DNA of 64,000 nt from contig JAMPAX010000002.1 in the NCBI GenBank assembly GCA_023667015.1, positions 180,259-244,258 on the forward strand, written 5' to 3'. Origin of the DNA: Muribaculaceae bacterium. GTDB lineage: Bacteria > Bacteroidota > Bacteroidia > Bacteroidales > Muribaculaceae. Both the position numbers and the translations under genes were made by a program. Positions 3,001 to 31,869 of the stretch are shown piece by piece; position 1 is the first letter of the stretch; each line of letters starts with the position of its first letter. The notes under the pieces are model-generated. The model made no database searches. It was not told where the DNA came from and saw only the letters and a program-made list of their open reading frames with translations.

Positions 3001-5790
3001 GGTAATCTGATATTCCTGTATCAGCAAGTCTACATCCTTACTGTCGGCAAGCTTTATAGTCTCCCCGTCGTAGTCGGTGCCCACAACCTGGACTGTATAT
3101 CTCCCCTCCTTGGCATTCTTCTTGTTGCAGGCCATCATGCGGTAGAAAGAACCATCTCCTGCACACAAATAATAGTCAATACCGTCCACACTGCGGAATC
3201 CCTGTCCCTGAAATTTCGCAGTGGCATAGAATATGGCATCCTCATCTTTGTCAAGCAAGTTTGAGGGGTCATTCACCCACATCTTCTTCGTGGCCTCGTC
3301 TCTGTCCTGGATAAGCACACCATCTTTCCACACACGGAAGTAACGTGAACACACACGACGATAATCCGAATTGTCTATCTTATAATAGAACACTCCACGC
3401 GTAGTATTCTCCACCGGATAAGGGAAGTCAAGACGCACCTGAAAGTCCATATCGGCCGAGGCTGTGATATGACGAAGGTTTTTGCGGATAAATGCCCTGT
3501 TTCCCTTTTCATTGGCCATATATTGGTCTGCAAACTTCTTTCCATCCTTGATTCTGAATATATGGCGTGTCTGGATTATTGGCTCGGTAATAGTCAGTGT
3601 TGAGTTGTCGACGTGATCCTTGACAGTAAAATTCTGCGAGATGTCAGCGGCAATTACAAATTCGTCCTTACATAACGCACGCAGGTCTCCATTCTCCTCA
3701 AATGGGTTGCGGGAGTGCATGAAAGTAGCGAATGTACCATATTTACGAGGTGCCTTATTATCGTTGGGAATCACCTCCTCAGGATTCGGCACAGACTCGA
3801 AGAGAACCGGATAGGGATACGTTTCTCCAATATTCCAGTTGGTCATACCGGAGTCTGTCAAAAATTCCGGGGTGTTGAATTCATTTTCTTGAATAACACT
3901 GAATCCCTGACGTCCCTGCAGATCATAACAGTTTACAAATTCCAATGTGTGGTTGCCATAGGAATCCCGGCGGCAAAGTTCGTATCCTTTAAGGAAACCG
4001 TCCGACTTACTTGTGACCACAACATTCTTTAACCGAACATCAAAACAGTTGGCGTTGCTTCGCATCCATCCGATAAGAAGACCATTCTGATTGTTGACGC
4101 CATTCGAAGTAATCTCACCATCAAAAGCGAAGTTTTCAACATCCAAAGTGTTGACACTCGTACCCGAAGGATTGTCAATACAGCCTATTATACCGCCGAC
4201 ATTACCATCCTCCTTATAGCTGGCCAACTTTGCCTTGTTGACAACACCTCTGATGGTAACAGGTCCATACTTCAACAACCCTATGAATCCAACGTTTTTA
4301 TTACCCTTAAATTCACAGCTTGAATCAATGATGAGGTTTTCGATTGTTGCTCCATAGCCTATTGTGCCAAAAAAACCGACAGCCTCTTCATGCAAATCAA
4401 TTTTCAGATTTTTTACCACATGGTTATTACCCAGAAAATATCCGGTCCACATCACGCCCCTGCCGATTGGTTCAACAGTGTTGCCTGCGTCAAGATATTC
4501 CTTAAAGTCAAGATCAGACATAAGTTTTGCCGAAGTTCCCCGGTTTTCCTTATTCACCTTTTTCATAAAGGCAATAAAGTCATCGACAGTATATATTTCC
4601 TTTATATCTGCAGAAACTCTTATATCATCCAAGGTCAACTCCTTACTTGCAAACCAGCCATGGTCCTTGGAACGGAAAACTCCGGAAGCATCCACCAGAA
4701 AGTCCAGCAGTTCATTGTGCTCCCCATCCTCCACCTGACCTCCGGTAGTGTAATCATACCAATGAATGAAGCTCTCCTCGTATGAAGCGACGTCCGGCAA
4801 AGTATAGTAGGGGTGCAGGGCAATCGGCTCCCCCTGTACGGCATACACCACATGTTCCACCGTGGCAGTACGCTGCAGTTTCAAATTGGGATTGGTGATA
4901 ATGGAATCATTCTCTGCAGTCACCCAACTATAGTCCGGCATTTCAATGCCATGGGTCTGCAAATAAGTTGTATCTGCAACCCATTTGCCCCGGGCATCAA
5001 AATTATTCCATCCCCCCTGATTTTCCAACAAGTCGTCATTATATGTGCCATAAGTCTTACGGTTTGCCGGATGGAGCACACCCTGATTATGTTCAAACTT
5101 ATAGTTATAATAACGCATATTTACATCGGAATACAGATGAAAACGGTCAACCCAATCTCCGACCACACGTTCGCCATCCTTGACCTGATAAATCTGAAAG
5201 CCGGCCAGGACCACAGGACGAATTCCCTTGCCGTCGCTGTCATAACCCACGATATACTTACCATTGTTCTGAGTGACGATAAACTGCATTGACTCAACAT
5301 CATTGATACTGTATGACGAGCCGGAAATCTTAGATATCCTCTCGTTGAGTTTGCTGAAAGGCAATGGCTCCGACAGATCGAAGGTATTTACACCCCTATA
5401 GGTAAAATAGACACGGGCCAGCACGTCAGTCTCATATTCCGACCTACCCCTGAGCTTGTAGTGGATCTCCATCGCTATGGGGTTACGTTGCAAAACCACT
5501 CCGGGACGACGGAGTACAACCACGAGGTTCTCACCTTCCTTCATGTTGAAAGTATCCGGAAACTTTACCCGCAGGTAATGCTGTTCCTTCTTATACGCAG
5601 TATCGGTGACGAACAGCGTATTCGGGTTGGTGTTTATCAGATTGGGGAACTCCTTTTTTTGCTCCTCAGCCGACAGAGCATTCGTGCTGAACTGTTCTGC
5701 AGACGTAATCAGAGGTGTGCTTGCCAATGAGTTCAGCACACCATATAAACCAAATATAAGGGATAATATAATCGATTTGCTGTGTTTCAT
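1..5790 (-). CDS. Very large secreted adhesin-like protein, putative fimbrial tip (partial at left edge)
   Basis: The frame is open from the ATG at 5790 to the window edge, giving at least 1930 residues with no stop; the C-terminus is missing. The N-terminus (MKHSKSIILSLIFGLYG) is a Sec signal peptide without a lipobox cysteine. Residues about 405-545 contain GLUG-like repeats with motifs such as VGFFGTIGYGATIENL, NVGFIGLL and VGGIIG, a beta-helical pattern known from surface adhesins and IgA-peptidase-type proteins. The rest is rich in Tyr, Asp and Asn and looks like stacked beta domains. The start overlaps the stop of the upstream lipoprotein by 4 bp (ATGA), so translation is probably coupled and this is the last gene seen of the fimbrial operon. 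By position it resembles the large Mfa5-type tip adhesin of Porphyromonas, but I saw no von Willebrand domain. The tip role is inferred. Confidence 0.8.
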   Translation of the reverse strand, partial: MKHSKSIILSLIFGLYGVLNSLASTPLITSAEQFSTNALSAEEQKKEFPNLINTNPNTLFVTDTAYKKEQHYLRVKFPDTFNMKEGENLVVVLRRPGVVLQRNPIAMEIHYKLRGRSEYETDVLARVYFTYRGVNTFDLSEPLPFSKLNERISKISGSSYSINDVESMQFIVTQNNGKYIVGYDSDGKGIRPVVLAGFQIYQVKDGERVVGDWVDRFHLYSDVNMRYYNYKFEHNQGVLHPANRKTYGTYNDDLLENQGGWNNFDARGKWVADTTYLQTHGIEMPDYSWVTAENDSIITNPNLKLQRTATVEHVVYAVQGEPIALHPYYTLPDVASYEESFIHWYDYTTGGQVEDGEHNELLDFLVDASGVFRSKDHGWFASKELTLDDIRVSADIKEIYTVDDFIAFMKKVNKENRGTSAKLMSDLDFKEYLDAGNTVEPIGRGVMWTGYFLGNNHVVKNLKIDLHEEAVGFFGTIGYGATIENLIIDSSCEFKGNKNVGFIGLLKYGPVTIRGVVNKAKLASYKEDGNVGGIIGCIDNPSGTSVNTLDVENFAFDGEITSNGVNNQNGLLIGWMRSNANCFDVRLKNVVVTSKSDGFLKGYELCRRDSYGNHTLEFVNCYDLQGRQGFSVIQENEFNTPEFLTDSGMTNWNIGETYPYPVLFESVPNPEEVIPNDNKAPRKYGTFATFMHSRNPFEENGDLRALCKDEFVIAADISQNFTVKDHVDNSTLTITEPIIQTRHIFRIKDGKKFADQYMANEKGNRAFIRKNLRHITASADMDFQVRLDFPYPVENTTRGVFYYKIDNSDYRRVCSRYFRVWKDGVLIQDRDEATKKMWVNDPSNLLDKDEDAIFYATAKFQGQGFRSVDGIDYYLCAGDGSFYRMMACNKKNAKEGRYTVQVVGTDYDGETIKLADSKDVDLLIQEYQITFLPETSSVMVTEEELKKMPEVSNERLELRYGTPSDVINFDEYRYLEVADSLTVSKPSDYIVHATRVEPNGDTQSGNYFRWPVSWEQSNYGFGYNVRHDYAMQMIVNNQVVTPYHSYGLAPASINFGGDGPGLFDRLYYDTQGAQKGYFYYVNAADDPGIIGRLRLDTFCPGSKIHVSCWISEFSSNSEAANLSLNFVARLKNGERIPLHSHITGYASSPNDYERRKKWLYVYSSFVPILTDKDFDIKELSHYEIEIDNNSKSSIGADYAVDDIRVYTVQPLVYARQLDLVCMESHSVGVQLSTDFEILMQSLAEEETEDGQPVNEFELYYTLLDKKVYDEAMAGGMTYEKAFNTAVLRYKYDGEKVSTYGKLKFKSNYNSHVDISSADTGYEYAYRKDDNGHRLIVLNTEPTDNKMMPGKEYIAVLIGHDPRDPNYVINEPTARDFNVEDDCTMKCVLTVASSHTIKIDGEVRNQSDEIDACRNQSPVVQVDLYAEVEDENGHKSTQKVEENAVFDWYDGSMDEFVEQKEGDLTLWDALGYFREVYPAADDLRDEPKGVYTKEMKQLINKYVVIDPTGEKRPKLYLAQSSYIFPPLVLPEGAVQRDEYVLAVPIPKEKENLLICTQPTEVHIVVKQRAPRLAQGISTIAYPPAITDVPLRLSLKSIKAATDESTPLVLPFRTIMPVTENVTDMCEPGGGSLIYLAGTKDPEYLSLSGEGKEDNELWAIGEVLNLVANKDDVEDGMVALQFYPEMHFKEGYEYHMRFLFEEAVPQASENEGVCSGHVVFTVKIVPEYQQWIGSENLNWNNDANWRRVSSSELLASASDFSDYVTDGNNAETSCFAPLDFTRTIIPQGNTVPELFNASMDSTLQWNSTPSENEIAGDATPLVQFDMIQDVKEMGIFCRPWLAHWCDQIQFKSGAEIGNQQYLNYNRAWVDFEVTPRRWYTLASPLQGVFAGDMYLPCNGARQTTPYFKEIYYDSSLNNRFNPAVFQRAWNKA

Positions 5791-7049
5791 TGTCTTGTTA
5801 CGTAGAGCGTTCGAGAGAATGTATATGATATCGGGGTTGAATCGGCGCTATCTTTATATGTTACAGTTATATCAAAATCCAGGGTTGCCGTGCCGGTCTT
5901 GCTTCCCGAGGTCAGTTCTCCGATGATCTCGCCGGTTATCGGGGCTATCGCAGGATTTTTGGAGAAAATTTTGTCGGGATCGTTCACACTCAAAGTCGCT
6001 ATAGTGTATTCATCCGCACTGAGAACTGAGCCTTTGCTATCCCTGACCATAGCATTGATGACAAACCTGCCGGACGATCCGAAATTGGCATAATACTCAT
6101 CTCCTTTCCGCTCCACCAGTATTGCCGGATATCCGCCAATGGGAGGATAAAAAAGGATGTCGAACGAAAGGGAGAAGTTGATAATCTTCAACGGAAGAAT
6201 AATATAGTCGTTACGATTTATCCACTGAAGTTCTGAGGTTAATGCGGAGAGAACCTCCCTGCGTCCCGAGTCGTGAGTAATATTCATTTTCACAACATAA
6301 TGTCCTGTCTGATGATTTTCCGCTGTACTTTCCAGCAGATAGAAAGTGTCGGTGAGAGTGTTGCCGCGGGCTATCGGGAGTCTGTAGGTGCGGTCCAGCT
6401 GAGTGCATGATGCCAACGGATTCATCTTCGGACTGCCGGCGAGACCTGTATAATCCGGCAACAGATTGACCTTGTCTGTCTTTGCCGGCAATAATGAGAG
6501 TTCATTGAGAGTGATTCCATTGTCCGTATCGTTGGTGATTTCCAGCTGCATCTTGGCCACCAGACGAACCACTTCAACAACGAAATGGGTACTTGCCTGC
6601 TGTCTGATATCTACCGTCAATTTGCCTGTCATTGGAACCCATGCATCATCTGACGGCACTGCCGACCATGTCATATCTTCAATTCCTGATGGCATCTGAG
6701 AGCCTTCCTTAAATCCGAAACGTTCGGTATTCGGATCGGCAGTTCCCATGTTGGCGAAAGCATAAATCGTATATGTTCCCGCATCTATTGTCACCTCAAA
6801 TGATTCGTTGCTGACCCCTTCTGACACATCCGAATTCCGCTCAACAATTTTCACAACCTTTCCCGAACTGTTGACGAAGGCCATCCACCAGTCATGGATA
6901 AGCTCATTGTCTGACGCGTTATTGTCGTAGGAACGTGTGGTCAGAGTGACGGAGGCAGTACGCGGTCCGAACGACAACTCTTCAGAACTGTCGGAAGAAC
7001 ATGATGCTAAAAGCAAAGAAATGAATATAATCGAATATATATATTTCAT
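5787..7049 (-). CDS. Fimbrillin-like lipoprotein, accessory fimbrial subunit
   Basis: A 420-residue lipoprotein with lipobox LLLASC (Cys17) followed by SSDSSEE, typical of Bacteroidales surface lipoproteins. The N-terminal domain carries the fimbrillin pattern: an early beta-strand with TTRS, a polar stretch on an outward message (WWMAFVNSSGKVVKIVE), then GTYTIYAFANMG, which matches the first sandwich domain of FimA/Mfa-like proteins. The C-terminal half (from about residue 300) is a separate beta-rich domain. It lies 6 nt downstream of the preceding fimbrillin-like gene and overlaps the next gene by 4 bp. By analogy with Mfa3/Mfa4 or FimC/FimD/FimE it may be an accessory or adaptor subunit between shaft and tip. 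The exact family was not determined. Confidence 0.75.
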   Translation of the reverse strand: MKYIYSIIFISLLLASCSSDSSEELSFGPRTASVTLTTRSYDNNASDNELIHDWWMAFVNSSGKVVKIVERNSDVSEGVSNESFEVTIDAGTYTIYAFANMGTADPNTERFGFKEGSQMPSGIEDMTWSAVPSDDAWVPMTGKLTVDIRQQASTHFVVEVVRLVAKMQLEITNDTDNGITLNELSLLPAKTDKVNLLPDYTGLAGSPKMNPLASCTQLDRTYRLPIARGNTLTDTFYLLESTAENHQTGHYVVKMNITHDSGRREVLSALTSELQWINRNDYIILPLKIINFSLSFDILFYPPIGGYPAILVERKGDEYYANFGSSGRFVINAMVRDSKGSVLSADEYTIATLSVNDPDKIFSKNPAIAPITGEIIGELTSGSKTGTATLDFDITVTYKDSADSTPISYTFSRTLYVTRQ

Positions 7050-7055
7050 TTTGAA

Positions 7056-8630
7056 TCACATTATGATTTGAGGCTGACGCCGCATATTCCAGGGACGCAC
7101 ATAAATCTCCGGCTCTACATTCCACGGGTCTTCAATTGTCACACCTTCTCTGCCTATGCCGCGGAAGCTTATCGCCACACGATATATATGGTTTCTGACA
7201 ATACCATATTCCATGGGGAAGACTGTACCCTCCGGACGCTTGCCATCAGCAAAGACAGTGTGCCGTATCCATAGGTTGTAATAGCATATGCCTTGGGGGA
7301 AACTCTTGATTTCCGCCTTGTCCGACACATGTTTGCTGCTATATTCAAGAGCTGCCTCCTGACTGGCAAAATACTTGATGTCAGCCTCGGTGGTGGTTGA
7401 GTTCTGAGGATTATAGCGCCAGATATCCGTTCCCCGGGCGGGATTTGCAATCTTTGCAGACAAATCCGCATTGGTGTAGATTACCTCCGGAACATATTGG
7501 GCTCTGATGACGAGTCCTGTCAGACATTCAGCGTAATGATTGTTGACATGTTGCGTATTCTCGTTGGCATACGCAAGGATAATACTCTTCTTTGAGGGAA
7601 AGTTAATCCTGCTGTCATCAAGATTGAGTTTCAGCTTGTTGGCTTGCGTGAAATAATCGTGTCCAAAAGTCTTGATTGTTTGGGAGGATGTATTGCCATA
7701 AAAGGCTTCGAAATTTGACAGCGGTAACTCCTTTAGAGTGGAGTGTGGCTCTACGACATACGCTGTCGGTCTCCCGGATTCATCCTTCGGCAAAGTTCCG
7801 GCAAAGCGGTAGCTCGAAAAGCAGTCATAACTATCAGTGGCGTCAACACTTATTCTTTTTAGGGCATAGGAAGACTGTTGCATGGCATTTACCGGAAGGA
7901 CATGGCTGACATAAACCGTAGCCACCTTCGAACCATCCGCGAGCCTTGCAGGGTAAACAATAAAGTCATCCAGCGGCTCACCGCCGGTATAATCAAAATC
8001 TATTCGGGCGGCAGTACGCTCCACTTCCAGTGTCGCAGTCAACGGATTCTCCTTAGTTCCGTATTCGGCATCGGTATTCTCAGGGTAGAGAGGTACGACA
8101 ACACCGTCATTTGCGTTGGCATTGGCCATCGTAAAATTCCTGCAACCGGCAAGGGAGGCAGACACCGTCCACGCTTGCGAAGGGATGAAGTCCTGCACTT
8201 GTCCCAAGGTCTTGAACGAAGAGCAGTCTCCCATATTGATAAGAGCAAGAACCCGGTCGCCCGGACTTATATGATAATTGCCACTGTTGAAAGCAATCTC
8301 CACCTCAGCACCGGTCTGTGTAAAACCGGAATCTGCGGAGGTGAAATAATAGCTATCCATTATCTGTGTATCGGCCGGCGAATCAAGCCCGCTTGCTCCG
8401 GTGTATATCAAAAGTGTAATATTCTTGACAATACACTCATTTTCAAGAGCGTCTTCATTCGTATGACTTTCAGCGCGGCTTCCTGTCAAAGGCATCTTCA
8501 AGGAAATCCTGATACATTGTCCTCCCACCTCATATTCTGTGCATGCAGGCTCCTCATGTACCTCTGAACATGACGCAAGAATGAAGGCAACAATAAGATA
8601 TGTCAGAAAATTCCTAAACATCAGAGACAT
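7056..8630 (-). CDS. Fimbrillin-like lipoprotein, accessory fimbrial subunit
   Basis: A 524-residue lipoprotein with lipobox ILASC (Cys21). The mature part begins with a beta-strand pattern (IRISLKMP followed by SRAE) and a typical FimA/Mfa-like segment, including LALINMGD, seen also in the major subunit as the ILNGV/VLNAPGD region. The C-terminus is GIVRNHIYRVAIS followed by EDPWNVEPEIYVRPWN; RNH-Y-V followed by a Trp-containing last strand is the C-terminal signature of the fimbrillin superfamily, where the last strand serves subunit polymerisation. It lies 93 nt downstream of the Mfa2-like anchor gene, separated by the tandem repeat at 8653-8737. A second possible start is Met4. It is probably an accessory subunit; the assignment rests on the superfamily pattern, not on one named subunit. 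Confidence 0.78.
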   Translation of the reverse strand: MSLMFRNFLTYLIVAFILASCSEVHEEPACTEYEVGGQCIRISLKMPLTGSRAESHTNEDALENECIVKNITLLIYTGASGLDSPADTQIMDSYYFTSADSGFTQTGAEVEIAFNSGNYHISPGDRVLALINMGDCSSFKTLGQVQDFIPSQAWTVSASLAGCRNFTMANANANDGVVVPLYPENTDAEYGTKENPLTATLEVERTAARIDFDYTGGEPLDDFIVYPARLADGSKVATVYVSHVLPVNAMQQSSYALKRISVDATDSYDCFSSYRFAGTLPKDESGRPTAYVVEPHSTLKELPLSNFEAFYGNTSSQTIKTFGHDYFTQANKLKLNLDDSRINFPSKKSIILAYANENTQHVNNHYAECLTGLVIRAQYVPEVIYTNADLSAKIANPARGTDIWRYNPQNSTTTEADIKYFASQEAALEYSSKHVSDKAEIKSFPQGICYYNLWIRHTVFADGKRPEGTVFPMEYGIVRNHIYRVAISFRGIGREGVTIEDPWNVEPEIYVRPWNMRRQPQIIM

Positions 8631-8652: not shown

Positions 8653-8737
8653 CTGAAATGCATTCTACCTAAATGCAGTCTATATGCAGTCTATTAAATG
8701 CAGTTTACTCGAATGCCGTCTATTCAAATGCCGTCTA
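8653..8737 (-). repeat. Six-unit minisatellite at the 3' end of the mfa2-like gene
   Basis: Six head-to-tail units of 15, 15, 14, 11, 15 and 15 bp fill this stretch exactly. On the minus strand they read TAGACGGCATTTGAA, TAGACGGCATTCGAG, TAAACTGCATTTAA, TAGACTGCATA, TAGACTGCATTTAGG and TAGAATGCATTTCAG. The first unit contains the last codons and the TGA stop (8724-8726) of the anchor gene; the other five lie in the intergenic spacer before the next fimbrillin-like gene. Units share the core TAGACTGCATTT. Such arrays can change copy number by slippage. Here that would change spacer length and not the protein, unless a gain moves the stop. Confidence 0.85.
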
Positions 8738-9791
8738 CATCCTGCAGAACGAGCTGCCAGGAATTTATGAATATCTGAGTATTGATCCAACGGCCGTTAT
8801 CATCAAGAAACAGTACTAATGAGTAATCGTCACGGTAGTCGAGATAGTCAGCATCACTAAGCTTGTGATGTTGACCCTTAGTAATCAAAGAATAGTCAGC
8901 GAGGGGAATGGAAGCCACAAGGCTCTTGTCCTCCTTGCGGTAGATATTCACCATGCATCGCTTCTGAGGAGTGATTCGGCTAATCTGGAAATCGGCAACG
9001 GCACAGCTTACAGCCGTGATGGCACGCGATTCGTTTCCCTTGCCGTCACCTATATAATCGGGAACATTCACACCGGCATAACCGTTTGTGACATTATGGG
9101 CGTAATATGTCAAAGGTTCGTCATCAAGAATAGTGTTGTCCCAGTCGAGATATCCGTTTTCCTCCTTAATTGTAAAGAGAAATTTGCTTTCATCGACAGG
9201 ATCACCGGAGAGATGTTGCAGGACGACATGAACGTCGTTTGTATCTTTTGTGAGGGGCATGACTATAATATGGTCTCCCTCGTCTTCGGGAAATGTTACA
9301 TCCATAACTTTTCCATGATATAAGTCGCGGAAATTATCACGGACGGCAGAGCCTTCGAAGTTCCAGCCCTCATCGTGTGCAGAACGTCCGCTGAGCGTTG
9401 ACTGCAGGTGGGTGTAATGCGTTGCGCTTTCCGGTATGCTGAAATCGGTCTTATGACCGCCGCCACACCAGGCGACAAGAGAGTAGGTGCCGGGAGTTAT
9501 ACCATCGACATCCATCAAATAAGAGCCGGACTTCAGTTCATCGCCGGCTTCGTATTTTTGCCAGACAATTTGGCCGTTGCCATCTATAATATATAATGTC
9601 ACCTCTTCAACTTCCGATGCGAACGCGTCTGCATATTTCAGATTACGGTCATATACAAACCGCACCTTATAATGAGGGTCGCAGTCACCTTCGTAATCAT
9701 AAATCATGCTGTCGCACGAGGTAAGCCACGCTGCTGCCGCTATGGGCAACACACGCAGAAGAGCTTTCAATATGCTCGAGATGCTATTCAT
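8724..9791 (-). CDS. mfa2: FimB/Mfa2 family fimbrial anchor lipoprotein
   Basis: A 355-residue lipoprotein with lipobox LTSC (Cys26). The start of the mature protein, with DYEGDC then an H/Y-rich strand and VRFVYDRNLKYADAF, is the recognisable signature of the FimB/Mfa2 family, followed by the VTLYIID strand and GTYSLVAWCGG. In Porphyromonas gingivalis the Mfa2/FimB protein anchors the fimbria to the outer membrane and sets its length. The gene lies 99 nt downstream of the major subunit gene, the order expected for mfa1-mfa2. The intervening hairpin at 9818-9855 may lower expression of the anchor relative to the shaft subunit. The stop lies within the first unit of a minisatellite. Confidence 0.9.
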   Translation of the reverse strand: MNSISSILKALLRVLPIAAAAWLTSCDSMIYDYEGDCDPHYKVRFVYDRNLKYADAFASEVEEVTLYIIDGNGQIVWQKYEAGDELKSGSYLMDVDGITPGTYSLVAWCGGGHKTDFSIPESATHYTHLQSTLSGRSAHDEGWNFEGSAVRDNFRDLYHGKVMDVTFPEDEGDHIIVMPLTKDTNDVHVVLQHLSGDPVDESKFLFTIKEENGYLDWDNTILDDEPLTYYAHNVTNGYAGVNVPDYIGDGKGNESRAITAVSCAVADFQISRITPQKRCMVNIYRKEDKSLVASIPLADYSLITKGQHHKLSDADYLDYRDDYSLVLFLDDNGRWINTQIFINSWQLVLQDVDGI

Positions 9792-9890: not shown

Positions 9891-11741
9891 TTACAAATCA
9901 GATGCAGTCTGGTTTACAACTTTCCAGGAAAGGATATTGATATTGGCACCTACATAATACATAGGATCCTCGGGATCTTCGGGAATGATTTCAGTTGTGT
10001 CATGCTCGGGATCAAATACCAGGTGTCCTACCTTCTTGAAGCTGTTGATTGAAATTACATACCAGTGGTTGCGGACTACACCATAGTAACCTTCAACGGC
10101 ATTCTCTTGATTTTTGTCTGCTGCAAGGTGTTCAATCGCGACATAGTAGAATGCATCACCATTGGAGTCTGAGCCTACAGCGGCATTAGCATCGAGGATA
10201 GTCTTGATATAGCCGTTGACAGAAGCCTCGAATGCGCCTTCAGCGTAAGGCTGATACTCCCCTTCTGCATCCTTGTAGTATACTTTCTGACCCGCAGCGA
10301 GAGGCTTGGCTGTAATCTTGATTTCGCCGAGTTTATGGTCAGCAGCTTCATCACGGCTTGATACCAGGTAGCTTTCATCGATTGTTACCCACTTGTTCTC
10401 ACCATCCTTAACCCAGAAGTTCAGGTGTTTTTCTGCCTTGATAGTGTTGAGCACGTGAGCCTTGAAGTCAGCATCCTTAAAGAGGAGACCACGGTATTGC
10501 ACCATGGAAAGAGGCCTCAACACATTACCGTCTTTTTCGTAGATACGGGTATGGAGAACCACATGTGTAGCCATTGAATTCTTGACACCGACTGCATCGG
10601 AACCCATTTTGATAGGACTTCCGAGTAAAGAAGCGAAGATATTATCGGGAGTATTGGTATTCTCGTAGCAATAGTCAACGTCACCGATTGAATTTCTCGA
10701 CTCACTTGAAACGACAGTGGCAGGCTTGGTATAATTGAGATTGACATTTGTCTTATTACCATATATATATGACATACCCCAATATGAACGCCAGTCGGCG
10801 GGAACATTCCAATCGAATGTGAAGGCGTTGTCAGCCCAGGTGGTATTGAGCTTCTTGCTCATATAGCTCTTCTTGGCTGTGGAGTTCAGACCCCAGCCGA
10901 TGACTCTGACGTACAACTCAGTCTGTGACTGGTCGCCATCGGAGGCTACAACATTGTTACCTCCCGCCACTGTCTGCTGAAGCTTATAATATCTGTTGTT
11001 ATCATCATCAGTAATGTACTCATTACCTAATGCACCTCCCAACTTCACTTCAACCTTTGCGGCAAGACGCTCCACATAGATTTCTACCGGATTGGGTACA
11101 TTACGAGCCAAATCTTCCGTAGGCTGGAAGTCATCCTTGTCGAGCTTGGTAGCGTAATAAAAAGTTGCGTCATGACGTTTCACTCCGCTGGCGCCATTTT
11201 TGTTGCCATTGAATGAAGAAGTTGTCATGATGAAGGGAGCTGTACGGGTCTTGTCGAAGTCTAAAGCATAGTCAGCCAAGATATCGGCGGTTTCCTGCAT
11301 TGTAGCTCCGGGAGTGAAGTCACCGGGAGCATTGAGCACGGTTATCATGTATTCCGGATAATCATTCTTCCGCACTCCATTGAGGATAAGAATATTCTTC
11401 GCACCTACATATTCAACGTTAGGAGTTCCTTCCGTAGCAGGTTTAAAATTATTTTCGGACTCGTCGCCCTTTGCGGTAAACGCATAAGCACCTTCCTTGT
11501 TGAAGAACAAGAACTGTACGGAATTCACCTTATGTTCCAGTTCCGTCAGCTGACTGCCAACATATCCGCCGGGAGTTGTTGCTCTTGTGCCGTCCTGGGC
11601 AGAAGTAATTTTGATAGCCATGTAAGCTACTTCGCCATCAACGACATCCGGTGTGTTAGGATCTACCATCGGCTCATCTGATGAGCATGCCGCAAAAGCG
11701 ACAGCGGTACATCCAAACAGAAATTTTGTGAATAATTTCAT
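9891..11741 (-). CDS. mfa1: Mfa1 family major fimbrial subunit (fimbrillin)
   Basis: A 616-residue precursor with lipobox AFAACS (Cys19). The N-terminal sandwich domain has the family pattern (AYMAIKITS, then TELEHKVNSVQFLFF with GAYAF, and ILILNGV). The C-terminal domain ends with YGVVRNHWYVISINSFKKVG and a last strand NINILSWKVVNQ, the conserved end of Mfa1-type subunits, in which this strand takes part in polymerisation. In the family, precursors are lipidated, exported, and cut after an Arg by an outer-membrane protease before assembly; Arg residues near TRATT (about 53-54) are candidates, by inference. The length is close to that of Mfa1. The gene lies 30 nt after the DUF3868 gene. It is the central shaft gene of this operon. 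Confidence 0.92.
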   Translation of the reverse strand: MKLFTKFLFGCTAVAFAACSSDEPMVDPNTPDVVDGEVAYMAIKITSAQDGTRATTPGGYVGSQLTELEHKVNSVQFLFFNKEGAYAFTAKGDESENNFKPATEGTPNVEYVGAKNILILNGVRKNDYPEYMITVLNAPGDFTPGATMQETADILADYALDFDKTRTAPFIMTTSSFNGNKNGASGVKRHDATFYYATKLDKDDFQPTEDLARNVPNPVEIYVERLAAKVEVKLGGALGNEYITDDDNNRYYKLQQTVAGGNNVVASDGDQSQTELYVRVIGWGLNSTAKKSYMSKKLNTTWADNAFTFDWNVPADWRSYWGMSYIYGNKTNVNLNYTKPATVVSSESRNSIGDVDYCYENTNTPDNIFASLLGSPIKMGSDAVGVKNSMATHVVLHTRIYEKDGNVLRPLSMVQYRGLLFKDADFKAHVLNTIKAEKHLNFWVKDGENKWVTIDESYLVSSRDEAADHKLGEIKITAKPLAAGQKVYYKDAEGEYQPYAEGAFEASVNGYIKTILDANAAVGSDSNGDAFYYVAIEHLAADKNQENAVEGYYGVVRNHWYVISINSFKKVGHLVFDPEHDTTEIIPEDPEDPMYYVGANINILSWKVVNQTASDL

Positions 11742-11771: not shown

Positions 11772-13319
11772 TTATTTTTTATTATCGTCGGCCGGCTTGC
11801 TGCCTTTTATAAAATATGTCACGGGGTAATAGTCACGTATCGCCTCGGTATCCTCGATTACTTTGTCCATATTGTCCAGTCCGGCTTCTTTAGCCTTGTT
11901 GAACAACACCAACGCTCCCTTGGCATCGCCCCGTTTTGCGGCGAGAATGCCTCGGGCATAGTCTACAATCGGTGAATTTCCGGCTTTCAGCAGGTGGCTT
12001 TGTGCCCTGTCATATTCTCCGCGCATCAATTCGATATTGGCGGCGTTGAGGTTCAGCATCGGATCATCGGGGTATACCGACACTGCAGTTTCAAATACGT
12101 CGCAATACTCTTTGGAACCCTCCGGATATGATTGGGCGAGGGTATAAAAGTCTACTGCGCGGAGATTGGTAGGGTCAGACGCATATACGCGGCGAATGTC
12201 CTCCAATGATGTATATACCTTGATTACATACTCCACGTTATAGTCGGAGTGTCGAAGCCATGGATATATTTCCTTGAGTATAATATTGTAGTCTTCGGGG
12301 AAACGGGTCTGAATTGCAAGGTTCTTATTGTCGAAGCCGAGCGGACCGTCTATAATGTCGATAATTTCACTCCTATGGGCTATGTTGAACTGCATGGAGT
12401 CGGTCATATACTTTCGCAAACCTGCCCAGTCTTCGGGCTCATAGCCGGAAGTCACAATACGGTCCTGGAATTTATACAAATCGCGGACATAACGCCGGAG
12501 AGTTTCCGTACGACCCTGGGCCAGTCTGACATTGTTGTCGTACGGACCTTCAGGAGAGGCGAAACCTTTAATGTGGACATGGGTGATTGTCGCATCCGGG
12601 TCTTTTCTGACAAACTCTATCGATTGGATTATCTTGTTGAGCTCCTTGCGGTTGTTCATGTAGTCGGGCTTAAGCTCTGTCCGGTTGACAACGAAGGTGA
12701 CGAATGCACTTCCCTCTATATTCTTTTCCACCGGACCGGCATCCACGGGGGGAGCAAACACATAATCCGCATTCAGAGCCGGACGGGCAATGTCAATATG
12801 GGCTATCGGCACCATACCGTTGTCCGACATCCCCGGAACAAGAGTTGGAGAGTCGCAGCAATTGGCAGTCTCAACACGCATCTCAAGAGAAGAATGACCC
12901 ATCCATGGCAACATGTCGAACTCAGTATCGTAAACGGCGTTCCCTTTTTTACCCGCACGGAAAATGGGGGCCTTGCCATCGTCAAGAACACCACTGCGCA
13001 AATAATGATACCAACGACTTCTCCCCGCAACAATCATCGGCTCCAGACATATGCTGTCGGTTCTGTCGTCAGCTATCAACACGGGGGTAAGTATCATTTC
13101 CCTGTCGCGGGACACCGTGAACTTCTCCACATCAAGTTCTATCTTAACATTCATGCGTTGTGCCAACTCATCAACCTTCACATTGATATCGTAAAGATTG
13201 ACGGTCGTGCTGTCCGAACGCATTTCTTTAGCCCATGCTGTCTGAACAAATGCCACACAAATTGCGGCAACACCAAGTATGTGTTTGAGTGTCATTATCG
13301 TCATGTACTTAGAAATCAT
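11772..13319 (-). CDS. DUF3868 / OmpA-like periplasmic or outer-membrane protein of the fimbrial locus
   Basis: A 515-residue secreted protein with a signal peptide ending near AWA. The N-terminal part matches the DUF3868 pattern seen in Bacteroidales fimbrial loci (DINVKVDELAQRMNVKIELDV, with repeated Val/Asp strands). The centre has an OmpA-like segment (TELKPDYMNN, then HIKGFASPEGPYDNNVRLAQGR and TLRRYV), a peptidoglycan-binding-like fold. The last 140 residues look like TPR helices (LNLNAANIELMRGEYDRA). The ATG at 13319 overlaps the DUF3575 gene by 11 nt; a start at 13304, 4 nt after that stop, keeps the signal peptide and is equally possible. It is usually next to DUF3575 and mfa1-like genes, so a role in fimbrial assembly or outer-membrane anchoring is inferred. 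Confidence 0.85.
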   Translation of the reverse strand: MISKYMTIMTLKHILGVAAICVAFVQTAWAKEMRSDSTTVNLYDINVKVDELAQRMNVKIELDVEKFTVSRDREMILTPVLIADDRTDSICLEPMIVAGRSRWYHYLRSGVLDDGKAPIFRAGKKGNAVYDTEFDMLPWMGHSSLEMRVETANCCDSPTLVPGMSDNGMVPIAHIDIARPALNADYVFAPPVDAGPVEKNIEGSAFVTFVVNRTELKPDYMNNRKELNKIIQSIEFVRKDPDATITHVHIKGFASPEGPYDNNVRLAQGRTETLRRYVRDLYKFQDRIVTSGYEPEDWAGLRKYMTDSMQFNIAHRSEIIDIIDGPLGFDNKNLAIQTRFPEDYNIILKEIYPWLRHSDYNVEYVIKVYTSLEDIRRVYASDPTNLRAVDFYTLAQSYPEGSKEYCDVFETAVSVYPDDPMLNLNAANIELMRGEYDRAQSHLLKAGNSPIVDYARGILAAKRGDAKGALVLFNKAKEAGLDNMDKVIEDTEAIRDYYPVTYFIKGSKPADDNKK

Positions 13320-13929
13320 AAACTATATTTATCGCGGCCTTTGTCGGACCCACATAATTATGGGGAGTGTCTTCCTCCACCTTCTTTCCGCATCCTTTAC
13401 AACGATATGTATCATAGCGGGAATAAATCCATCCTATGCCAATTTCCGCTTCAATGCTCCAGTGTCTGCTGAGTATCCAGTTGTATCCATAGGCTATGCC
13501 GGCTCCTGCCATCCAACCCTGCCAACGATAGTCTTTCAACTCCCTAAAGTCTGTGCCCAGAAACTTGAAAGGAAGGTCGATATGACCGACATTAAACTGT
13601 CCTCCAAGCACATGAGCACCTATGAAATGGCCGGAAAATCTCTGGCAGAACCAATATCGGGCTTCCGGCTGCACCAGCCAATGCTTCCATTTCTTACCTC
13701 CGGACAAATCCCAGGCGTTGACATTGCCTGACACATCGAGCGTCCATTTAGGAGCCAGCCCGACTTCCACACCTACACTCGGTGTCAGCAGAGCATCATA
13801 CAGGAGATTAGTCTTGACCGCCACCTCCTGCGCAGATACGAACGATGAACCAATCGCCAGAGAGATGATGACGGTTGCCATTCTGATATAAGTCATTAAA
13901 GAACAAGTTGTCTCTTCAACAATTTTCAT
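13309..13929 (-). CDS. DUF3575 outer-membrane beta-barrel-like protein
   Basis: From the ATG at 13929 the product is 206 residues. It begins with a signal peptide ending near FVSAQ, followed by the DUF3575 signature VAVKTNLLYDALLTPSVGVEV. Alternating hydrophobic/aromatic strands and a C-terminal NIVYDF suggest a small outer-membrane beta-barrel. A short CKGCGKK segment gives two cysteines in a probable surface loop. An upstream in-frame start at 13953 would overlap the regulator gene and give a poor leader, so 13929 is preferred: it lies just 2 nt after the regulator stop (TAAATATG). The gene is paired with DUF3868 downstream, as in other Bacteroidales fimbrial operons. A role in fimbrial biogenesis is inferred from position. 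Confidence 0.85.
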   Translation of the reverse strand: MKIVEETTCSLMTYIRMATVIISLAIGSSFVSAQEVAVKTNLLYDALLTPSVGVEVGLAPKWTLDVSGNVNAWDLSGGKKWKHWLVQPEARYWFCQRFSGHFIGAHVLGGQFNVGHIDLPFKFLGTDFRELKDYRWQGWMAGAGIAYGYNWILSRHWSIEAEIGIGWIYSRYDTYRCKGCGKKVEEDTPHNYVGPTKAAINIVYDF

Positions 13930-13931
13930 AT

Positions 13932-14783
13932 TTATAGGTCGCGCACAAAGCATTTGTGCATTTTATGGTTTTGAATTTTGTTGGGATTCTGATTCGTTAT
14001 GATGGAGTGTGGTTGCTCCAACTCGACTGAAGAACAATTCTGTATGTCAACCTTGACGGTCTTTTTATGAGACGTCATAGTATTCGCGGTTGCCTTGAAG
14101 TTTTTTGTCTGTTGGCAGGCGGATTTCTTCTCCATCAAGCCTTTGTGGTAGAAGCGCAGGTATTGGGTGAATCCACCTTTGGAGACTCTGCATCTTTCTG
14201 CTATCTCCACTATAGTCATGTCGGTGTCGCGGTATAGCTGCAGTGCCTCCGTGTAGGTTTCCTCGCTTTGAGGGCGGGCGCCGCGGGGTGTAGTGTCGGC
14301 TATGCCGAGGCGGCGGCGAAGTTCCTCCCTCTTGGGGATTATCTCAGAGTAGTGCGACTTGAGCTGGGCGGTAAGACCTGTTGCACTCAGATTGAATATA
14401 CGAGCTATCTGCGACACATTGTATTCTATGTAGGCGATGTCGCTGCAAGCCTCTATGGCATCCTTATATTTAAGGTGTGTCAGCATGGATTGCCCTTTCG
14501 GGTTTTTCACCTTAATAGTATGGGAGTCCTTGTCATCGGTATTGAAACCATAACGCGACAAAAGTAGCTCTCTGTGGTGCCTGCCGATATGGGCACTCAG
14601 TCCACGGGGAGTCACTCCACATTTTTCAGCTACCTGACGGATGGAGAGGTTTGTCGCTGCATACATAGCAACAGCCTCAGCATACTTTCGCTCAGCAGCC
14701 GAAGTCCGAAGAGATACCGGGAGACGCCTGAAGTTGGTCGGGGTATTCACTCCTTCGTATGTCAGGTTTAATACATCGTTCAT
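13932..14783 (-). CDS. Triple helix-turn-helix-repeat DNA-binding protein, putative fimbrial operon regulator
   Basis: The ATG at 14783 gives 283 residues; a TTG one codon upstream is less likely. The protein contains three related blocks of about 45 residues: residues 33-79 (YAEAVAMY, SIRQVAEKCGVTPRGLSAHI), about 105-150 (YKDAIEAC, NVSQIARIFNLSATGLTAQL) and about 175-222 (YTEALQLY, TIVEIAERCRVSKGGFTQYL). Each has the pattern [ST]-I/V-x2-[IV]-A-x-x-C/F-x-[VL]-[ST]-x2-G-[LF], a helix-turn-helix with a recognition helix after the Gly/Leu. The last 60 residues are polar, Asn/Lys-rich and probably disordered. It is the first gene of the fimbrial operon and is followed at 2 nt by DUF3575. I do not recognise it as a named regulator family; autoregulation is inferred from nearby palindromes. 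Confidence 0.75.
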   Translation of the reverse strand: MNDVLNLTYEGVNTPTNFRRLPVSLRTSAAERKYAEAVAMYAATNLSIRQVAEKCGVTPRGLSAHIGRHHRELLLSRYGFNTDDKDSHTIKVKNPKGQSMLTHLKYKDAIEACSDIAYIEYNVSQIARIFNLSATGLTAQLKSHYSEIIPKREELRRRLGIADTTPRGARPQSEETYTEALQLYRDTDMTIVEIAERCRVSKGGFTQYLRFYHKGLMEKKSACQQTKNFKATANTMTSHKKTVKVDIQNCSSVELEQPHSIITNQNPNKIQNHKMHKCFVRDL

Positions 14784-14789
14784 CAAGTT

Positions 14790-14802
14790 CCGGATAATCC
14801 GG
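14790..14802 (-). promoter_or_regulatory. 13-bp palindrome just upstream of the regulator start codon
   Basis: CCGGAT-A-ATCCGG is a perfect inverted repeat with a 1-nt centre. It ends 6 nt before the ATG at 14783, where ribosomes bind. It could be a protein operator or an RNA hairpin that hides the translation start; which one is not decided by sequence. Confidence 0.55.
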
Positions 14803-14941
14803 CTAAGTTAAAGTTGAGGACTGCGCAGAGACTTCACCTAAGCAGATAGCCAACTATCCACCAAGCAAATCACGAAGCGACAATACCACAATCGCCACAT
14901 CGCGATTCCATGCAGTCCAAATTTTCGGGTTTGTAAGTTGT

Positions 14942-14962
14942 GTAACTCTTTGTAAGAGTTAC
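14942..14962 (-). promoter_or_regulatory. 21-bp inverted repeat in the predicted 5' leader of the fimbrial operon
   Basis: The half site GTAACTCTT (14942-14950) and its exact reverse complement (14954-14962) flank a TGT centre: a 9-bp perfect dyad. It lies about 12 nt downstream of the -7 element, near or just after the predicted transcription start, a good place for a repressor. No T-run follows, so it is not a terminator. Confidence 0.6.
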
Positions 14963-14973
14963 TTAATGATGTG

Positions 14974-15004
14974 CAAAATTAGTTAAGATTTCTTAACTTG
15001 CAAA
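14974..15004 (-). promoter_or_regulatory. Predicted Bacteroidetes-type promoter of the fimbrial operon with an internal palindrome
   Basis: On the minus strand TTTG (15004-15001), a 19-nt spacer and TAATTTTG (14981-14974) match the Bacteroidetes -33 / -7 consensus (TTTG, TAnnTTTG). The spacer contains the perfect inverted repeat AGTTAAG-ATTT-CTTAACT (14981-14998), so a bound protein would sit between the two promoter elements. The predicted start near 14967 would give a leader of about 180 nt before the regulator gene. Confidence 0.6.
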
Positions 15005-15328
15005 ATTAAAACGGAAAAATTTCCTAAAATTCGTAAAACTTTCCTGACAGAAAACCTGAAAAAGTATGAATGTTTGGCTAAAGCTCAAAACAGTCTTCAT
15101 AAACATTAAATATTCAACTTGATGCAAAAATCCAAATCTCTTACAGAGAGTTACTATGATTAGAACCTTGTCGCAACTGACATACCTTAAATATAAGGCC
15201 GCATTAGAAGTCGATAGCGATCTTCGGCTACATACTCTTAATGTTTTACTCAAAAAGAGGGGGGTAGTACCTATGCGTTTGGTGTCGGGAATTTTGGACT
15301 TCTTTCTATAGGTTTCAACTATTTTTGC
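15005..15328. other. Intergenic stretch between divergent fimbrial and ompA-like genes, no convincing gene
   Basis: This AT-rich stretch separates the fimbrial promoter from the ompA-like promoter. A 51-codon ATG frame exists on the plus strand (15156-15311) but has no recognised motif. A second TAATTTTG box on the minus strand (15008-15001) overlaps the -33 element of the first promoter; no matching -33 was seen for it. Confidence 0.6.
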
Positions 15329-31680: not shown

Positions 31681-31759
31681 TCAAATAGGACAACAATTTC
31701 TACTTTAAAGTAATAAACCAATACTCAAAGAGGGTGTATAATAAATCGTATATACAATA

Positions 31760-31842
31760 GAACGTAGGGACGCACGAATAGTGCATCCCTCCTTATAATC
31801 AGTATACTATAACGGACGCACGAGTAGTGCGTACCTACGTTC
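31760..31842. repeat. REP-like palindromic intergenic element, copy 1
   Basis: An 83-bp element whose outer arms GAACGTAGG and CCTACGTTC are reverse complements at its ends. Two inner hairpins built on GGACGCACGA...GTGC lie between. It resembles the second copy at 62617-62698 in both arms and size. Such elements are typical of REP-type repeats thought to be spread by Y1-type REP-associated transposases. Confidence 0.8.
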
Positions 31843-31869
31843 TGATTGATGATACTGCCCCTTGATTAT

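Follow-up and report, generated by a model that had tools for sequence, protein, structure and literature searches.

In E. coli, the fimS element carries a promoter that is flipped by a recombinase (FimB/FimE) and switches fimbriae on and off, as we propose for the locus described here. Its fimbriae, promoter type, and sites are unrelated to those of our locus, and the two switches do not belong to the same family. Closer systems are found within the Bacteroidota, where fimbrillin genes behind invertible promoters are already known (PMC11892184; reviewed in PMC12632263). Invertons of Bacteroidales lie upstream of fimbrillin genes, UpxY/capsule operons, and other surface operons (PMC11892184, PMC8748976), and the published promoter consensus of this order has TTTG at -33 and TANNTTTGY at -7 (PMC8748976). 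In B. fragilis, phase-variable loci for the outer surface and fimbriae are under the control of Tsr (Weinacht et al. 2004, as cited in PMC12632263). At these loci, as with Tsr19/BF2766 (PMC4747536), a tyrosine recombinase flips the promoters of surface operons, and loss of the recombinase locks their orientation. The EPS switch of the pMMCAT plasmid combines a site-specific integrase, two tandem invertons, and UpxY. A literature search found no inverton study of Muribaculaceae.

We analyzed a 64-kb stretch from the genome of a gut bacterium of the Muribaculaceae (hereafter the window) that holds a fimbrial operon. The region upstream of this operon is very probably a site-specific DNA-inversion switch (inverton) that carries an invertible promoter for type V (Mfa-type) fimbriae and is in the ON orientation as sequenced. 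The operon contains the fimbrillin subunits (two matches to PF15495) and the Mfa2-type anchor (PF08842) that define this fimbrial type, and relatives have the same fimbrial operon behind the switch. Its genes are as follows:

13932-14783, minus strand: first gene, a poly-HTH regulator with three repeats, truncated relative to a six-repeat family (domain and homologue comparison)
13309-13953, minus strand: DUF3575 protein, likely start near 13929 (PF12099, E 2.4e-75)
11772-13319, minus strand: DUF3868/OmpA-like protein (weak Pfam matches; gene order kept in relatives)
9891-11741, minus strand: major fimbrial subunit, Mfa1-like (PF15495 Fimbrillin_C, E 8.7e-18)
8724-9791, minus strand: Mfa2-type anchor subunit (PF08842, E 1.8e-50)
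7056-8630, minus strand: further fimbrial subunit with Fimbrillin_C (PF15495, E 9.6e-9)
5787-7049, minus strand: probable last fimbrial subunit (weak FimA match, PF06321, E 0.0046, below the cut-off)

The sequence-only reading of this DNA had described the control region as a promoter with three perfect dyads beside a gene for a protein with three HTH repeats. The dyads are all present exactly where it placed them, the promoter is correctly located and fits the Bacteroidales consensus, and the three HTH repeats were borne out. Of the six strict Bacteroidota promoter matches in the whole window, only the one listed here lies near the operon. Scanning with the E. coli sigma-70 consensus was uninformative for Bacteroidota and was dropped. 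The elements of the control region are:

14974-15004, minus strand: promoter TTTG-N19-TAATTTTG, read from 15004 to 14974 and directed into the fimbrial operon, the ON orientation, with a predicted transcription start near 14966-14970 (strict consensus scan; consensus of PMC8748976)
14981-14998, no strand: perfect dyad between the -33 and -7 boxes, 8-bp arms and a 2-nt gap, without conservation
14790-14802, no strand: short perfect dyad, 6-bp arms and a 1-nt gap, ending 6 nt before the ATG at 14783, without conservation
14942-14962, no strand: predicted operon-side recombination site, a perfect dyad (9-bp arms, 3-nt gap) with an inverted partner; 17-nt arm at 14942-14958, core CTCT-TTGTA-AGAG at 14946-14958
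15138-15154, no strand: predicted far-side recombination site, the inverted copy; minus-strand core CTCT-CTGTA-AGAG at 15138-15150
14959-15137, no strand: 179-bp segment between the sites, predicted to invert; homologous segments occur in both orientations

Three dyads with arms of at least 6 bp arise in 0.1% of dinucleotide shuffles of this 222-bp stretch, and the two dyads observed with arms of at least 8 bp compare with 0.015 expected. The significance of the three together is due to the two long dyads; the lone 6-bp dyad is unremarkable and near chance level. These figures, and the HTH protein encoded by the first gene, are what can be said for an operator model, in which a three-HTH protein binds three dyads and autoregulates the fimbrial operon. 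Conservation in relatives, which the sequence-only reading had itself named as a test, proved uneven: homologous control regions lack the dyads at 14981-14998 and 14790-14802, and the one at 14942-14962, which had been placed near the transcription start, is kept as a type of site that is always half of an inverted pair. With two dyads absent in relatives, the third a recombination site, and six repeats rather than three in the homologues, we consider the operator model very improbable. The dyad at 14981-14998 may be a lineage-specific operator.

The inverted pair itself had been missed. A repeat search found that 14942-14958 (GTAACTCTTTGTAAGAG) has an inverted copy at 15138-15154, complementary at 16 of 17 positions, and that the promoter falls between the two; shuffling the intergenic region 1500 times gave an equally good pair in 6 cases. 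Both sites carry conserved CTCT and AGAG arms, and their spacers, TTGTA on the operon side and CTGTA on the far side, differ at one base. Genome-wide scans, which were pattern and family searches, found only one other close inverted pair of CTCT-N5-AGAG in this genome, near the end of contig C8. Within the window, just one more 16/17 inverted pair has a spacing of 50-500 bp, at 31759-31843 (AGAACGTAGGGACGCAC / GTGCGTACCTACGTTCT, 51 bp between the arms).

Comparison across Muribaculaceae and other Bacteroidales supports the inverton. Inverted CTCT-N5-AGAG pairs were found at 20 other loci (21 with the window), upstream of regulator homologues or just behind a tyrosine recombinase gene. Across the 21 pairs, the CTCT and AGAG arms hardly vary. 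The central 5 bp differ between loci, yet they are identical within the pair in 20 of the 21, the exception being the window. Pairs were chosen with at most one mismatch, so this within-pair identity is partly selected; the conservation of the arms and the variation of spacers between loci are unaffected. Invariant arms with variable, pair-matched spacers are the pattern expected of site-specific recombination, in which the arms are bound and the crossover region has to match its partner. The window pair is assigned to this family by descent, not by present activity. DNA-level orthologues of the control region gave only short partial matches among 111 genomes of the genus and none in plasmids.

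Many regulator homologues have these inverted sites upstream, approximately 160-290 bp apart, with a promoter inside. A strict promoter in one direction lies within the segment at ten regulator loci; three further loci have no strict promoter. It points toward the regulator at six loci (the window, G164/L086, G014/L094, G127/L042, L088, and L092) and away from it at four (G261/L089, L090, G326/L093, and G326/L099). Opposite states can even share one MAG, as L090 (OFF) and L092 (ON) do. When the inner segments were aligned, loci in the same state matched better directly and loci in opposite states better inverted in 12 of 12 comparisons, several with scores little above those of shuffled controls. 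Two contigs (L029 and L030) terminate inside the segment, as expected if a sample holds both orientations. Both orientations are thus present across homologous loci and plasmids, and the window species is represented by one assembly, which is ON.

The recombinases associated with these sites form a clade of tyrosine recombinases of approximately 400 aa with Arm-DNA-bind_5, Phage_int_SAM_5, and Phage_integrase domains. In many genomes, the clade gene ends shortly before a CTCT-N5-AGAG pair, and in G023 and L089, it directly precedes the switch and the regulator. Parabacteroides loci L100, L105, and L120 have a similar layout in which the repeat differs and a shorter gene takes the recombinase-like position. 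The pMMCAT and G023 recombinases share 64% identity, and the pMMCAT sites have TTCT in place of CTCT in the left arm. In two Bacteroides plasmids of this kind (NZ_CP072219 and NZ_CP072238), the 3.9 kb compared are the same throughout, apart from an exact 216-bp inversion between two sites, which is direct evidence of inversion in this recombinase/site system. Taken together, the site pairs in relatives, the promoters in both directions, and the plasmid inversion make an invertible promoter very probable. An on/off switch for fimbriae had been proposed before, and that outcome is upheld; the mechanism is very probably DNA inversion rather than a three-module protein acting on three operators.

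In the mechanism we propose, a recombinase of the Bacteroidales clade would exchange strands at the inverted cores at 14946-14958 and 15138-15150, and this exchange would flip the 179-bp promoter segment. In the ON state, the promoter would read into the operon for the regulator, the DUF3575 and DUF3868 proteins, and the Mfa-type fimbrial subunits. After a flip, it would face the other way, and the fimbriae would be OFF. The window copy presumably descends from such a switch, and its orientation would set fimbriation.

A different view is that the dyads act in the RNA, as leader hairpins by which transcription or translation is attenuated. In its favor, the operon-side site would be among the first stretches to be transcribed, and work on the Tsr19 system of B. 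fragilis, cited in PMC4747536, associates a larger number of repeats between promoter and gene with lower transcription. However, leader hairpins leave the inverted far-side copy, the matching spacers, and the link to a recombinase without explanation, and an RNA family search found no Rfam match at the leader, so an RNA family there was rejected. We give this RNA model marginally less credence than even the operator model.

As an inverton, the window switch is a new, eroded copy of a known Bacteroidota type. It shares with the Bacteroidales invertons the inverted repeats flanking an intergenic segment, an outward TTTG/TAnnTTTG promoter within it, and a surface operon downstream. A nearby recombinase, common for invertons but not required, since some act in trans, is present just upstream in relatives as a tyrosine recombinase gene; it is lacking next to the window switch, which also differs in its one-base spacer mismatch and in having a poly-HTH regulator as first gene. 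The likeness described here is one of layout. With the pMMCAT switch, it shares the type of site and the clade of recombinase, whereas pMMCAT drives UpxY and polysaccharide genes rather than fimbriae. The B. fragilis Tsr loci and Tsr19/BF2766 resemble it in mechanism.

No recombinase gene adjoins the window switch, and a remnant beside it was rejected, as tblastn matches in the window had E values of at least 0.9. No intact member of the clade was found in the genome (2.07 Mb, 99.69% complete). Contig C8 has a C-terminal fragment matching residues 338-402 of the clade recombinase, shortly after a tRNA-Ser gene; it is followed by the second CTCT-N5-AGAG pair, whose spacers match and which comes with a promoter (L024 1507-2028), and the contig ends approximately 110 bp beyond these sites. 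A weak clade fragment lies at the start of contig C11. We consider it somewhat more probable than the reverse that the window switch now stays ON in this genome, either locked or flipping very slowly; the reasons are that the searches found no intact clade recombinase and that the crossover spacers have come to differ. In B. fragilis, such promoters become locked when the recombinase is deleted (PMC4747536), which favors a locked ON state here as well. The copy looks eroded: it has the only spacer-mismatched pair of the 21, only a recombinase fragment remains, and the regulator keeps three of six repeats. The same inverton could still be active in the strain if, mismatch notwithstanding, it is flipped by a recombinase that acts in trans or is absent from the assembly. 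Recombinases can reach distant sites, as Tsr19/BF2766 does in flipping a local and a distant promoter (PMC4747536), the pair on C8 has matching spacers, and other tyrosine recombinases are present in the genome. Set against a nearly complete genome with no intact clade member and a mismatch that is unique among the pairs, continued activity is a real but lesser possibility.

The first gene belongs to the less known part of this system. Only generic Pfam HTH domain models matched the regulator and no NCBIfam model scored over its cut-off, so no named model from either library passes its cut-off for the poly-HTH family; no PDB fold matched at E ≤ 0.001. Of 297 genomes sampled from the bacterial family, 16 carry a homologue, the window's own among them. 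A named genome collection has homologues at 35 loci, including loci in Muribaculaceae MAGs, Parabacteroides, Bacteroides, Phocaeicola, Barnesiella, and Alistipes; the closest named matches to the window belong to Muribaculaceae, which agrees with its placement in that family. Nearly all homologues carry six HTH repeats. The earlier suggestion that the number of sites is linked to the number of modules does not hold, as the apparent three-for-three match is due to C-terminal truncation of the regulator in this genome. The only other protein that seemed to have three repeats, in G261, is interrupted by an assembly gap. The regulator's tail is predicted to be disordered with very low confidence, and two further elements of sequence are of note:

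13931-14035, no strand: MITE-like repeat encoding the regulator's non-homologous tail (105 bp align at 90% identity with an intergenic copy in G028 that has inverted ends)
15156-15311, plus strand: 51-codon ORF, remnant of a second poly-HTH gene (27/32-nt match to the regulator gene, 0 of 500 shuffles; weak protein match)

A supposed regulator homologue in G028 was rejected as this dispersed repeat, which the C-terminal tail reads through. The element (also at L018 10052-10217) is single-copy in the present genome; G028, which belongs to the same genus, has several copies, partial or whole. The ORF begins just outside the far-side site and resembles the second module of the poly-HTH gene on the opposite strand. 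A flipped promoter would face it, and the ORF may be what is left of a second regulator once driven in that orientation. Poly-HTH homologues also occur in glycan operons (L091, L101, L102, L107, L111, and L118); at L091 (the L032 locus), the homologue is directly behind an inverton and a UpxY gene. In one subgroup (L086, L087, L089, L029, and L042), the regulator leader contains 8-11 consecutive C residues within a potential hairpin (GGGG...CCCC). The window lacks this feature, which could be a second, slippage-prone control.

Tentatively, and with about the same reserve as we hold toward continued flipping, we suggest that the six-repeat proteins are undescribed, operon-specific regulators of Bacteroidales that form a second layer of control behind inversion, a fimbrial counterpart of the UpxY antiterminators of capsules. 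Layer and switch would both have collapsed here, with the regulator halved, the sites mismatched, the recombinase lost, and the fimbriae fixed ON. What appeared to be an operator array is reread as a phase-variation switch for fimbriae in Muribaculaceae. The CTCT-N5-AGAG signature with matched spacers, tied to a clade of recombinases, makes such switches findable from sequence alone. Through the eroded copy, it can be asked whether bacteria fix phase-variable fimbriae in the ON state by losing the recombinase.
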